From: Fimbriiglobus sp.
GTDB lineage: Bacteria > Planctomycetota > Planctomycetia > Gemmatales > Gemmataceae
Length of the DNA: 32,546 nt
Direction of reading: 5' to 3'
Assembly (NCBI GenBank): GCA_025362195.1
Contig: JANYHV010000222.1
Span: forward strand, 1 to 32,546
Made by a program: the position numbers and the translations under genes. Below, in pieces: positions 17,502 through 31,366 of the stretch; position 1 is the stretch's first letter; each line of letters begins with the position of its first letter. A model generated the notes under the pieces. That model was not told where the DNA came from, made no database searches, and saw only the letters and a program-made list of their open reading frames with translations.

Positions 17502-18962
17502 ATGGCCGCCACCAGCCTCGCCCCGCCGCCCGCCCCGCCCGCGCCGCCGTTGGCGGACGACCCGCTCCGCGTCCTCGTCGTGGACGACGACCGGCACCTC
17601 GCCGCGGCCATCGCCGAGAGCCTCGAACGCCGCGGCCACGCCGTCACCACGGCCGTCAGCGGCAAGGCCGGGGCGGCCCGGATCGAGCAGGACGAGTTCG
17701 ACGTGGTGCTGACCGACTTGCGCATGGCCGACCTCGGCGAGCAGGGCGGGCTGACGATCGTCCGCAGCGTCCGCGAACACCTGCCCGACGCCGAGGTGTA
17801 CGTCATCACCGGGTACGGCGACGTGAAGACCGCGGTCGAGGCGATGAAACTCGGGGCCGCGCACTACCTGTTGAAGCCGATCGACATGACCGAGTTGCGG
17901 GCCATCGTCGGCAAGTCGGCCGACCGCGTCAAGCTGGCCCGGAGCAACCGCGAGTTGCGGCAGCAGATCGACGAGCGGTTCGGCCTCGAAGGCATCGTCG
18001 GCAACGGGTCGAAGATGCAGCGGGTCGTTCAACTCTTGAAGGCGTACGCGCCCAGCCCGGCCCCGATCCTGATCCTCGGGGAGAACGGCACCGGCAAGGA
18101 ACTGGCCGCGAAGGCGCTGCACACCAACGGGCCGCGGAAGAACCGGCCGTTCGTGGCGATGAACTGCGCCGCGCTCAACGAAAACCTCCTCGACGACGAC
18201 ATGTTCGGCCACGAGGAGGGCAGCTACACCGGGGCCAAGGGGGCGCGCAAGGGCCGGTTCGAGCACGCCAACCACGGCACCCTCTTCCTCGACGAAGTCG
18301 GCGACATGCCGTTGACCCTCCAGGCGAAACTCCTCCGCGTGCTGGAGAACGGCGAGGTCACCCGCATCGGGGCCAACGACCCCGTCCGCGTGGACGTGCG
18401 GATCGTCGCCGCGACGAACAAGAACATCGAGGCCATGGTCGAGGACGGCCGCTTCCGCCGCGACCTGTACCACCGGCTCAAGGTCGGCGTGCTGCGGCTG
18501 CCGGCGCTGCGCGAGCGGCGCGAGGACTTGCCGCTGCTGTTGAACCACTTCACCCGCGACCTGGCGGTAAAATACGGCAAGAAGCCGCCGGTCGTGGGCG
18601 AGGCGGTCCGCAAGGCGTTCGCCGCGTACGGTTGGCCGGGCAACGTCCGCGAGTTGCGCAACGTCCTCGAAAGCATGACCGTCCTCGACCTCGACGGCGT
18701 GCTGGGCCTCGACGACCTGCCCGAAGACTCCGGCGTCGCCCCCGACCCGTACGCGCACTCGGCCGGCGACGACGACGGCCCCGACCGGCTCGTCGGCAGG
18801 CCGCTCGAAGACGTGGAGCGGTACTACATCGAGCGGGCGCTGGCGATGACCGAGGGCAACCGCGAGGCGGCGTCGGAAATGTTGAAGATCGGCGAACGGA
18901 CCTTGTACCGCAAGCTGCAAGAGTGGAAAAAGGCCGACGAGGCGAAGCGACCGACCCTGTAG
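17502..18962 (+). CDS. NtrC-family sigma-54-dependent response regulator
   Basis: Encodes 486 aa. A 20-aa Pro-rich lead precedes a receiver domain (23-140) with acidic residues 28-30, phosphoacceptor Asp72, Thr103 and Lys125. The AAA+ domain has Walker A GENGTGKE at 193-200, the sigma-54 contact loop as GSYTGA at 240-245 (canonical GAFTGA), Walker B GTLFLDE at 259-265 and the arginine-finger region FRRDLYHRLKVGVLRLPALRER. A Fis-type helix-turn-helix ends the protein (NREAASEMLKIGERTLYRKLQEW). It should activate sigma-54 promoters after phosphorylation. No histidine kinase is adjacent, so it is an orphan regulator. GGAG lies about 8 nt upstream of the chosen ATG. A sigma-54-type promoter at 30275 in this window is one possible, unproven target. 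Confidence 0.93.
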   Translation: MAATSLAPPPAPPAPPLADDPLRVLVVDDDRHLAAAIAESLERRGHAVTTAVSGKAGAARIEQDEFDVVLTDLRMADLGEQGGLTIVRSVREHLPDAEVYVITGYGDVKTAVEAMKLGAAHYLLKPIDMTELRAIVGKSADRVKLARSNRELRQQIDERFGLEGIVGNGSKMQRVVQLLKAYAPSPAPILILGENGTGKELAAKALHTNGPRKNRPFVAMNCAALNENLLDDDMFGHEEGSYTGAKGARKGRFEHANHGTLFLDEVGDMPLTLQAKLLRVLENGEVTRIGANDPVRVDVRIVAATNKNIEAMVEDGRFRRDLYHRLKVGVLRLPALRERREDLPLLLNHFTRDLAVKYGKKPPVVGEAVRKAFAAYGWPGNVRELRNVLESMTVLDLDGVLGLDDLPEDSGVAPDPYAHSAGDDDGPDRLVGRPLEDVERYYIERALAMTEGNREAASEMLKIGERTLYRKLQEWKKADEAKRPTL

Positions 18963-28805: not shown

Positions 28806-29753
28806 ATGAATCGTTCGACCCGGCCCGCGTCTCGTCCCGGCTTCACGCTGATCGAGCTCCTCGTCGTCATCGCCATTATTGCCATCCTGATCGGCCTGCT
28901 GTTGCCCGCCGTGCAGAAGGTCCGCGAGGCGGCGTCCCGCATGAAGTGTACCAACAACCTGAAGCAGTTGGGCCTGGCCATGCACGGCCACCACGACGCC
29001 CTGGGCAAGTTCCCCATCGGGTCCAGCGCCGGCAGCCGGCCCCGCCAGACGTGGGTCATGAGCCTGTGGCCCTACATCGAGCAGACCGCGCTGGCGGGCA
29101 AGAACAATTTGAACAACAACTTCTACCAGGAGCCTGCCACGATCGGCGGCACGATGAACGGCCTGTGCGGGTCCCGCGTGCCGGGGTACTACTGCCCGAG
29201 CGACAACGGCGTCGATTTGAACACGACGTACTACCAGCGGACCCGCGGCAACTACATGGTCTGCTGGGGCAACACCCGGTACGGCCAGGGCGTGCCGGTC
29301 GTCGGCAGCGGCCCGGGCGCGGGGATGTTTTCCCACAAGGACGGGGACCGCGCGCAGCCCGTCACCGTCACCTTCGGCAGCATCTCCGACGGCACCTCGA
29401 ACACGCTCATGCTGGCCGAGAGCCTGATGGCCAAGTCCCCCGCCGACAACGACTGGCGCGGGGACATCCACAACGACGACGGCGTGTTCCGGTTCCACAC
29501 GATCACGCCGCCGAACAGCACCGTGGCGGACATCATCGCGTCCGGCTGGTTCCAGAACGCCAACGACCCGCTGATGCCGGCCGTGGCCGGGGGCGGGAAC
29601 GAGCAAGTCGCCGCGGCCCGGAGCCGGCACACCGGCGGGGTGAACGCCGGCCTGGCCGACGGCAGCGTCCGGTTCTTCCGCAACAGCACCGCCCCCGTCA
29701 CCTGGATGGCCCTCGGCACCATGAACGGCGGCGAAGTCGTCAGCGTCGATTGA
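28806..29753 (+). CDS. DUF1559 pseudopilin-like protein (H-x9-DG type)
   Basis: Encodes 315 aa. A basic leader ends in the prepilin-type cleavage site G|FTLIE (residues 12-17) followed by a hydrophobic helix [19 protein letters not shown], as in type II secretion pseudopilins. The rest is the DUF1559 domain ([30 protein letters not shown]), ending with the H-x9-DG motif, His275 to Asp285-Gly286 ([12 protein letters not shown]). Such proteins are present in very many copies in planctomycete genomes; the function is probably structural, at the cell surface or envelope. A strong GGAGG ribosome site precedes the start. It is followed 51 bp later by the small lipoprotein gene, a common pairing. 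Confidence 0.93.
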
Positions 29754-29804
29754 CCCGGCCGTCGGCCCGCAACCCCTCCCCCCCTCGCCCCACGGACCGC
29801 CCCC

Positions 29805-30239
29805 ATGACGACTCTCCTCGCCGCCCGCAAGCTGACCGGCATGGCCCTGACCTTCGTGCTGGCCGCGGCCGTGCTGGGCTGCGACAGCGGCCCGCCGATG
29901 GGGGACGTCGAGGGGGTCGTCACGGTGGACGGTGCCCCGGCCGCGATGGGGGCGATCACCTTCACCCCGACCGACGGCCAGCGTGCCCCGGCCGGGTGCG
30001 AAATCAAGGACGGCAAGTACGCCGTCCGCGTCGCCGTGGGGCCGTGCAAGGTCGAACTCCGCGTGCCCAAGAAGATCGGCGAGAAGAAGCTGTACGGCAA
30101 CGACCCGCACAGCACGTCCGCGCCGGTCTTCGAGGAGTCGTTGCCGGCGAAGTACAACGACACCACGGACCAGAAGCACGACGTGACCGCCGGCCGGACG
30201 ACGAAGAACTGGGACGCCAAGTCCCGGTACGCCAAGTAA
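29805..30239 (+). CDS. Small lipoprotein with transthyretin-like/Ig-like fold
   Basis: Encodes 144 aa. Signal peptide with lipobox VLGC, Cys at 26. The mature part starts DVEGVVTVDGAPAAMGAITFTPTDG and continues ...GKYAVRVAVGPCKVEL, typical of the short carboxypeptidase-regulatory/transthyretin-like lipoproteins that follow DUF1559 genes in planctomycetes. The role is unknown; it may accompany the pseudopilin-like protein on the cell surface. Confidence 0.85.
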   Translation: MTTLLAARKLTGMALTFVLAAAVLGCDSGPPMGDVEGVVTVDGAPAAMGAITFTPTDGQRAPAGCEIKDGKYAVRVAVGPCKVELRVPKKIGEKKLYGNDPHSTSAPVFEESLPAKYNDTTDQKHDVTAGRTTKNWDAKSRYAK

Positions 30240-30274
30240 CCCCCGCCGGCCAAATCCGCGCGGTCGTGCGCCGG

Positions 30275-30290
30275 TGGCACGCCCGTTGCA
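30275..30290 (+). promoter_or_regulatory. Sigma-54 (-24/-12) promoter before the YflT-like gene
   Basis: TGGCACGCCCGTTGCA matches the sigma-54 consensus TGGCACG-N4-TTGCW without a mismatch; the invariant GG (30276-30277) and GC (30288-30289) are ten bases apart as required. The expected transcript start is near 30301, about 62 nt before the ATG at 30363. It sits in a real intergenic region on the correct strand. Confidence 0.65.
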
Positions 30291-30334
30291 TGACCGCCCC
30301 CCCGAAACCCGGGGCCTCGCACTTCGCGGGCGTC

Positions 30335-30360
30335 CCGGTTCCCTTTCGGTGAGGAACCGG
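30335..30360 (+). promoter_or_regulatory. Hairpin enclosing the ribosome binding site of the YflT-like gene
   Basis: CCGGTTCC (30335-30342) and GGAACCGG (30353-30360) form a perfect 8-bp stem around a 10-nt loop. The right arm contains most of the GAGGAA ribosome site (30351-30356), which lies 6 nt before the ATG at 30363. The fold could hide the site and make translation conditional, for example on temperature or a bound factor. Confidence 0.55.
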
Positions 30361-30362
30361 CC

Positions 30363-30881
30363 ATGACCAGCACCACGAAATCGACGACCGTCGGCGTCTT
30401 CAACACCCGCGGCCAGGCCGACAAGGCCGTCAACGAGTTGAAGGCCCTCGGGTACACCGACGACCAGATCGGCGTCGTCGCCAAGCACCAAGACAGTACC
30501 GCCAAGACCGGCCTCCAGGACGACCCGACCGGGACGCGCTGGGAAGAGGGCACGGGCATCGGGGCCGCCGCCGGGGCCGCGACCGGGACGGGCCTCGGCC
30601 TGGCCGTCGCCGCCGGCCTGTTGACGCCGGTCGGCCCGTTGATCGCCGGCGGGGCGCTGATCGCGCTGCTGGCCAGCGCCGGGGCCGGGGCCACGGTCGG
30701 CACGCTCGTCGGCGGCCTGGTCGGCCTCGGCGTGCCCGAGGACGACGCCGAGTACTACGAGGGCGAGGTGGACGCCGGCCGGTACGTCGTCACCGTGGAC
30801 GCCGGTGCCCGCTCGACCGAAGTCCAGTCGATGTTCCGCCGCCACGACGGCTACGACCGCAGCACCTCGACCCCCCGGTAA
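30363..30881 (+). CDS. YflT-like (general stress protein 17M family) protein with Gly/Ala-rich core
   Basis: Encodes 172 aa. The N-terminus TVGVFNTRGQADKAVNELKALGYTDDQIGVVAKHQD matches the opening of the YflT/17M stress-protein domain. The middle (about 60-125) is a glycine/alanine-rich hydrophobic stretch (GIGAAAGAATGTGLGLAVAAGLLTPVGPLIAGGALIALLASAGAGATVGTLVGGLVGLG), like the glycine-zipper segments of this family, possibly membrane-associated. The C-terminal strand YYEGEVDAGRYVVTVDA closes the fold. Molecular function is not established. A sigma-54 promoter and an RBS hairpin lie just upstream, and a strong terminator follows, so it is a single-gene unit. Confidence 0.85.
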   Translation: MTSTTKSTTVGVFNTRGQADKAVNELKALGYTDDQIGVVAKHQDSTAKTGLQDDPTGTRWEEGTGIGAAAGAATGTGLGLAVAAGLLTPVGPLIAGGALIALLASAGAGATVGTLVGGLVGLGVPEDDAEYYEGEVDAGRYVVTVDAGARSTEVQSMFRRHDGYDRSTSTPR

Positions 30882-30904
30882 GCGGCCCCCGTTCCGGACG
30901 ACCC

Positions 30905-30948
30905 AGCCCCGCCCGACCCCCGGTGATTTCCGCGGGCCGGGCGGGGCT
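30905..30948 (+). terminator. Rho-independent-type terminator after the YflT-like gene
   Basis: AGCCCCGCCCG (30905-30915) pairs perfectly with CGGGCGGGGCT (30938-30948), 11 bp, with a 22-nt loop, followed by a short TT run and CGGCGTTT. It lies 24 nt after the stop at 30881. Confidence 0.65.
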
Positions 30949-31018
30949 TTCGGCGTTTGAAATTGCGCCCGCCGGGCGGCGAATACAACACCATTCCCCA
31001 CACCGAGGAGTGTCCGCC

Positions 31019-31366
31019 GTGCTCGCGCTCGATCAACTGGTCTTCGTCGGCTTGAACGGGTACGCGGTCGCCCTGGACCGCGACACCGGCGACATCGTCT
31101 GGTCCAACGACCAGATGAAATCCGGGTACGTGACGATGCTCCTCGACGGCGACCGACTCATCGTTTCGACCAACGGGTACATCTTCTGCCTTCACCCGCT
31201 GACCGGGGACATCCTCTGGCAAAACACGATGAAGGGCTACGGGAGCGGCGCGCCGACTTCGCTGGTGTCGGTCCGCGGGCAGAGTTCGCAAGACGTGATC
31301 GTGCAGGGTGCGGCCGCCGATACCGCTGCCGCGACCGGCACGCACGCCGCGGCCGCCGTGATTTGA
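31019..31366 (+). CDS. Small two-blade PQQ-like propeller protein
   Basis: Encodes 115 aa. Two PQQ-like beta-propeller blades are visible: [16 protein letters not shown] and [16 protein letters not shown], each with the D/P-x-x-TG-x-I-x-W signature, followed by [11 protein letters not shown] and an Ala-rich tail. A full propeller needs six to eight blades, so this is either a minimal unit that oligomerises or a remnant of a larger protein. GTG at 31019 is chosen because GAGGAG (31005-31010) lies 8 nt upstream; a GTG at 31010 would overlap that site. No signal peptide is evident. Confidence 0.75.

Follow-up and report, generated by a model that had tools for sequence, protein, structure and literature searches.

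Organization of the YflT-like locus

The window, which is the whole 32,546-nt stretch of DNA analysed here, carries on its forward strand a gene at 30363-30881 that encodes a small YflT-domain protein (Pfam PF11181) of 172 amino acids with a glycine-rich middle. An earlier note on this DNA had placed the gene in a general stress family as YflT-like, and the name is borne out by a PF11181 match above the gathering cut-off (E 6.8e-10; 39.8 bits against 26.2) that covers the profile only partially, with the alignment limited to residues 9-47 and to profile positions 2-40 of 99, the N-terminal part. The predicted structure is of low confidence (mean pLDDT 55); in this model, a beta-alpha-beta N-terminal end and an alpha-beta-alpha C-terminal end lie on either side of the glycine-rich middle, and it looks as if an insert might split one small domain.

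The start codon is preceded by a Shine-Dalgarno sequence, GAGGAA, recognized from the sequence at 30351-30356 (+), with the ATG 6 nt further on. The next gene upstream, at 29805-30239 (+), encodes a small probable lipoprotein with no Pfam match; a sequence resembling it also lies upstream of the homologue in a genome of the same genus (G007). The gene stops 35 nt short of the -24 element described below, and an enhancer within about 200 nt would fall mostly inside it. The nearest named relatives of the YflT-like gene are found in Fimbriiglobus MAGs (family Gemmataceae, Planctomycetota), in keeping with the planctomycete origin suggested earlier. Its homologues amount to 112 matches in 41 of 95 family genomes, and the two nearest relatives of the protein share 86% and 80% identity with it.

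A predicted sigma-54 element upstream of the YflT-like gene

The segment TGGCACGCCCGTTGCA at 30275-30290 (+) agrees with the sigma-54 consensus TGGCACG-N4-TTGCW at 12 of 12 consensus bases, with no mismatch. Its GG (30276-30277) and GC (30288-30289) are separated by a gap of 10 nt, so the exact consensus and correct spacing claimed in the earlier note are both confirmed. We annotate this segment as a sigma-54 (RpoN) -24/-12 element on the basis of the consensus match and its conservation in homologues. The ATG of the YflT-like gene sits 72 nt 3' of the element on the same strand. At sigma-54 promoters transcription starts about 12 nt past the GC, a geometry that places the predicted start at 30301 (+). 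A consensus scan of 29700-31100 returned no sigma-70-like promoter.

Taken by itself, the perfect match is weak evidence for a promoter. The source genome (G000; a fragmented assembly of 5.66 Mb in 509 contigs) contains two perfect sites over both strands and none for the reversed motif, and about 1.3 perfect matches per genome are expected from composition by a hand estimate; at up to one mismatch, 41 sites were counted against 52 for the reversed motif. On the genome count alone, therefore, the promoter is not distinguishable from chance, there being no enrichment over the reversal at up to one mismatch. The site rises above chance because of its position before the ATG and its conservation in homologues.

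Conservation of the element across Gemmataceae

For the survey of homologues, 91 of the 112 YflT-like matches were sampled roughly by rank, with weak matches and contig-edge fragments dropped before promoter inspection; 90 of the 91 upstream regions were scorable (one was unscorable), and the best site within 200 nt before the start was recorded for each. Across 38 Gemmataceae genomes, the best site has no more than two mismatches in 53 of the 90 regions, and 29 of these 38 genomes have at least one YflT-like copy with such a site. By the same count, the opposite strand yielded 6 and the reversed motif 2, while 200 permuted motifs gave a mean of 1.25 and a maximum of 9. The best sites comprise 2 with no mismatch, 19 with one, 32 with two, 26 with three, 9 with four and 2 with five. 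The 53 sites with at most two mismatches keep a narrow distance to the start codon (median 66 nt; 5th-95th percentile 46-90). Among the 78 sites with at most three mismatches lying 38-110 nt from the start, the GG and the GC are present in all 78 and the T before the GC in 77, and the remaining positions vary. Recognition by sigma-54 would be expected to produce just such invariance of GG, GC and T amid a variable remainder.

Both nearest relatives keep the element: in G007 the site is still perfect, with T as the last base, which remains within the consensus, and in G045 it is kept with one mismatch. The -24/-12 bases, whose conservation in relatives the earlier note had named as a check, are thus retained both in the family sample and in the closest genomes. 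Outside the family, 29 of 38 matches were scored. Sites of two mismatches or fewer precede four of the 29, two of these four having a single mismatch; the opposite strand gave three and permuted motifs averaged 0.36. The signal beyond the Gemmataceae is weak, and the element is rare before the homologues scored there. Judged from the conservation within the family, the predicted site at 30275-30290 is real and functional-looking.

The hairpin at the ribosome site

The end of the predicted leader holds an 8-bp inverted repeat with a 10-nt loop at 30335-30360 (+), in which CCGGTTCC (30335-30342) and GGAACCGG (30353-30360) are perfect reverse complements and overlap the ribosome site. When the leader is folded from the predicted start at 30301 at 37 C, the GGAA is 94-98% paired, the first G of the site is 88% paired and the A following it is mostly free; the earlier description of a perfect 8-bp hairpin burying most of GAGGAA accordingly holds as a prediction for this fold. 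A 60-nt leader without the first bases adopts a different fold with a mostly open ribosome site (0.66 unpaired). Compared with homologous leaders, the target is among the more open when 60-nt leaders are folded (79 of 90 are lower) and among the more closed when folding begins at the predicted start (5 of 45 at or below it, the target included). As the two folds disagree, the accessibility of the ribosome site depends on the assumed 5' end.

Shuffling puts the chance of an 8-bp repeat at about 0.4% for one given leader of this composition. A stem of this length at the ribosome site was seen in one of the 90 YflT-like leaders, where about 0.35 would be expected. Repeats of this kind number 23 over the whole window, compared with 15-27 in each of five shuffles, and 30301-30400 folds with an unremarkable energy (z -0.41). 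For 45 leaders folded from their sigma-54 starts, the ribosome site has a mean unpaired value of 0.43, against 0.39 in shuffled sequence and 0.16 in the target. Computed melting of the stem gives a gradual opening above 45 C and no sharp transition in the range 20-65 C, and the leader has no Rfam match. The stem is absent in both G007 and G045, the very relatives that keep the promoter, so the conservation expected of a regulatory stem fails both there and in the wider sample of leaders. A conserved translational switch was rejected given the single occurrence of the stem, its loss in the nearest relatives, the lack of an Rfam match and the lack of excess pairing at the ribosome site. The hairpin is probably a chance feature of this species, in which it may lower translation. 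Separately, the leader stretch GCACTTCGC (30318-30328) is kept in both nearest relatives despite the loss of the stem.

Other stress-type genes preceded by sigma-54 sites

The second perfect site of the source genome lies 69 nt before a gene for a DUF2171 protein. Of the 41 sites found when one mismatch is allowed, we inspected 30: the two perfect ones and 28 more. One-mismatch sites precede a DUF1328 gene and two YtxH/LEA-like genes (the latter below the Pfam cut-off), and another lies 207 nt from a weak BON-like gene, likewise below the cut-off; many of the 30 precede non-stress genes or no convincing gene. At the family level, DUF1328 (PF07043) was sampled at 30 loci from 86 matches, two of these loci being too short; a site of no more than one mismatch precedes the gene in 16 of the 28 scorable upstream regions, against one on the opposite strand. 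The control, ribosomal protein L27 (30 loci from 90 matches), gave no site with at most two mismatches in 30 upstream regions. DUF1328 occurs in 42 of the 95 genomes, and 33 genomes hold both it and a YflT-like gene (Fisher p 3.6e-10, not phylogeny-corrected). This family-wide set of stress-type genes preceded by sigma-54 sites goes beyond what the earlier note had claimed.

In three relatives, perfect sigma-54 sites were also seen 50-161 nt before two GroEL-like genes and one DnaK-like gene (L140, L153 and L150), with gene identity judged by eye. These sites agree with the chaperone enrichment described in the available text of a recent study of Planctomycetia (PLoS One 2025, PMC12316311).

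Candidate activators and kinase-activator islands

The source genome has a single copy of rpoN, which is matched in 87 of the 95 family genomes, and encodes eight strong AAA+ sigma-54 activators, one of them truncated by a contig end. The candidate that we favour is a receiver-AAA-HTH protein at G000:C321:6471-7874. Its gene is transcribed divergently from that of a CHASE3-PAS histidine kinase, which is itself followed by a receiver protein and a receiver-kinase. This activator lies directly 5' of YtxH-like, DUF2383 and DUF1328 genes, each with a one- or two-mismatch sigma-54 site. Its best NCBIfam models are AtoC, NtrC and others including ZraR, none above the cut-off, and the nearest solved chains are NtrC-family regulators.

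Comparable activator islands were found in G051, G044, G045, G007 and G087. Pfam scans covered the kinase adjoining the activator in G000, G051 and G087 and confirmed it in all three; in G007 the ORF script gave no clear call for it. Genes present in at least one scanned island encode DUF2383, DUF1328, YtxH-like, Holin-X, BrkB, AI-2E transporter, branching-enzyme-like, carbonic anhydrase and DUF2934 proteins, and the island of G045 also contains a YflT-like gene with a two-mismatch site. Of the 101 ORFs called across the six islands, 27 are preceded within 200 nt by a site of two mismatches or fewer (reversed motif 1; opposite strand 4; permuted motifs mean 1.4, maximum 6), a figure that serves as description and not as a blind test, the islands having been chosen for the presence of the activator and mostly also of DUF1328 nearby, and the ORFs having been called by a simple script, with some spurious. 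The kinase beside the activator in G087 (L294, 4367-6403) has an ETR1-like (ethylene receptor) N-terminal domain where those of G000 and G051 have CHASE3, and the sensor paired with the same activator thus seems to differ between lineages; by eye, the G044 kinase (L291, 4996-8103) resembles the ETR1-like kinase of G087.

An orthologue of the C321-type activator was counted in 44 of the 95 genomes, leaving out 6 of 50 genomes whose best match is only 41-45% identical. Of the 41 genomes that have YflT-like genes, 36 also have this orthologue, compared with 8 of the 54 that lack such genes (Fisher p 4e-13, uncorrected for phylogeny; genome completeness is 56-100%, and absences are soft). The five YflT-like genomes lacking it are G093, which has a one-mismatch site, G021 and G023, with three mismatches each, and G012 and G030, which were unscored. 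We take this co-occurrence as suggestive only, because a larger genome may retain each of the two genes for a reason of its own.

The window itself encodes a further receiver-AAA-HTH activator at 17523-18956 (+), 11 kb from the YflT-like gene. At E 1e-100 it is matched in 85 of the 95 genomes (three at just 42-44% identity), namely in 38 of the 41 that have YflT-like genes and in 47 of the 54 that lack them, and no orthologue was found in G007. It is probably a core regulator, and co-occurrence does not single it out as the regulator of the YflT-like gene, its near-universal presence being uninformative. A third activator examined occurs in 2 of the 95 genomes; among these three of the eight activators, the C321 type tracks the YflT-like gene best. 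Searches for a shared enhancer motif, by exact dyads in 64 upstream regions and by 5-mer dyads with one mismatch allowed in the 70 of 76 regions kept after de-duplication, turned up no dyad that stood out clearly from shuffled sequence, and for that reason the link from the C321 activator to the YflT-like gene is one that we infer.

Proposed mechanism and alternative explanations

We consider it highly probable that 30275-30290 is a working sigma-54 promoter, served by an NtrC-type activator with its kinase and of a type shared by a set of small stress-type genes, with C321 as the likeliest source of the activator. RNA polymerase carrying RpoN would bind the element as a closed complex, which an NtrC-type AAA+ activator, turned on by a histidine kinase, would open, so that production of the YflT-like protein would follow the signal sensed by the kinase. 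The same promoter type would be common to small stress-type genes encoding YflT-like, DUF1328, YtxH/LEA-like, DUF2383, DUF2171 and other proteins, whose expression would depend on RpoN in the cell and whose products may protect against stress. The likeliest activator would be the receiver-AAA-HTH protein at G000:C321:6471-7874. We accordingly read the YflT-like gene, from its sequence context, as one putative member of a conserved sigma-54 stress regulon with the C321 activator as leading candidate.

The principal competing explanation accepts a real sigma-54 promoter and has one or more other activators, such as that at 17523-18956, switch the YflT-like gene, with no single regulon. We regard this as less likely than not. 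In its favour, the genome has eight strong activators to choose from, the one 11 kb away accompanies nearly all YflT-like genes (38 of 41 genomes), no common enhancer motif was found upstream, and G093 retains its site without a C321-type orthologue. Yet the window activator is nearly as frequent where YflT-like genes are missing (47 of 54) and was not found in G007 with its perfect site, whereas the C321 type is the best tracker of the three compared and sits among sigma-54-preceded stress-type genes.

Two further explanations fare much worse. That the hairpin adds a temperature- or ligand-dependent translational switch to the sigma-54 promoter draws on the perfect stem, its low chance in a single leader, the near-complete pairing of GGAA at 37 C and the gradual opening above 45 C, but a stem missing from the nearest relatives and found in one leader of 90 against 0.35 expected, with neither family-wide hiding of the ribosome site nor an Rfam match nor sharp melting, makes it very improbable. 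The two-layer control put forward in the earlier note therefore survives in its transcriptional half, with conserved -24/-12 bases, one rpoN and NtrC-type activators, and is given up in its translational half, with the stem lost and no excess pairing. Hardest of all to credit is a chance match, with the gene using a different promoter: some 1.3 perfect sites per genome are expected and sites with at most one mismatch are no more frequent than reversed ones, but chance would not account for conservation and position in homologues, for the empty L27 control (0 of 30) or for the lack of a sigma-70-like promoter in the scan. We thus retain the sigma-54 promoter with a kinase-linked NtrC-type activator as the preferred reading.

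Relation to known systems and significance

In Bacillus, yflT (GSP17M) belongs to the SigB general stress regulon, where, as here, an alternative sigma factor of the stress type governs the same small-protein family. SigB itself is of the sigma-70 type and is controlled by an anti-sigma factor; unlike it, the promoter predicted here is of the sigma-54 type, which requires an activator ATPase. Small membrane and LEA-like proteins are also typical members of the RpoS and EcfG general stress regulons of Proteobacteria, which resemble the present set by analogy in the kinds of small protein and use another sigma factor with another promoter. ZraSR and other NtrC-type two-component systems, like C321, place a receiver-AAA-HTH activator beside a histidine kinase; unlike them, the present arrangement combines a CHASE3-PAS or ETR1-like sensor with a proposed broad target set in place of one neighbouring operon. 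Predictions of sigma-54 regulons reportedly include those of Studholme and Dixon (2004) for Pirellula.

A sigma-54 promoter before stress-related genes is an already known kind of element. In Planctomycetia, predicted sigma-54 promoters before genes for UspA, MscS channels, chaperones and ZraR-like activators are described in the available text of PMC12316311; stress-related genes are thus the shared theme. The present gene set and the kinase-activator island do not appear in the available text of that paper, and the terms YflT, DUF, Gemmat- and CHASE3 have no occurrence in its main text. For Rhodopirellula, a member of another family, the portions available of PMC2754498 describe rpoN as unregulated in heat shock and down-regulated in salt, and mention a thioredoxin gene for which a sigma-54 promoter had been proposed. 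In the open-licence PMC papers searched, the available text gave no account of YflT-like or DUF1328 genes being controlled by sigma-54, nor of this island.

Sigma-54 probably governs part of the stress programme of the Gemmataceae. More tentatively, at somewhat less than even chances, their general stress response might as a whole be run by sigma-54, and not by SigB, RpoS or EcfG, through one dedicated kinase-activator pair governing a scattered regulon of glycine-zipper, LEA-like, DUF1328, DUF2383 and YflT-like genes; if true, a dedicated pair would give the whole response an ATP-driven, off-by-default switch. Under strict sigma-54 control these genes should be silent without the signal, and the activator would offer a handle for finding it. 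Membership of such a regulon would also hint, by association, at what several DUF families do, and a conserved sigma-54 stress regulon with a candidate kinase-activator pair would be a different answer to how planctomycetes coordinate a general stress response.
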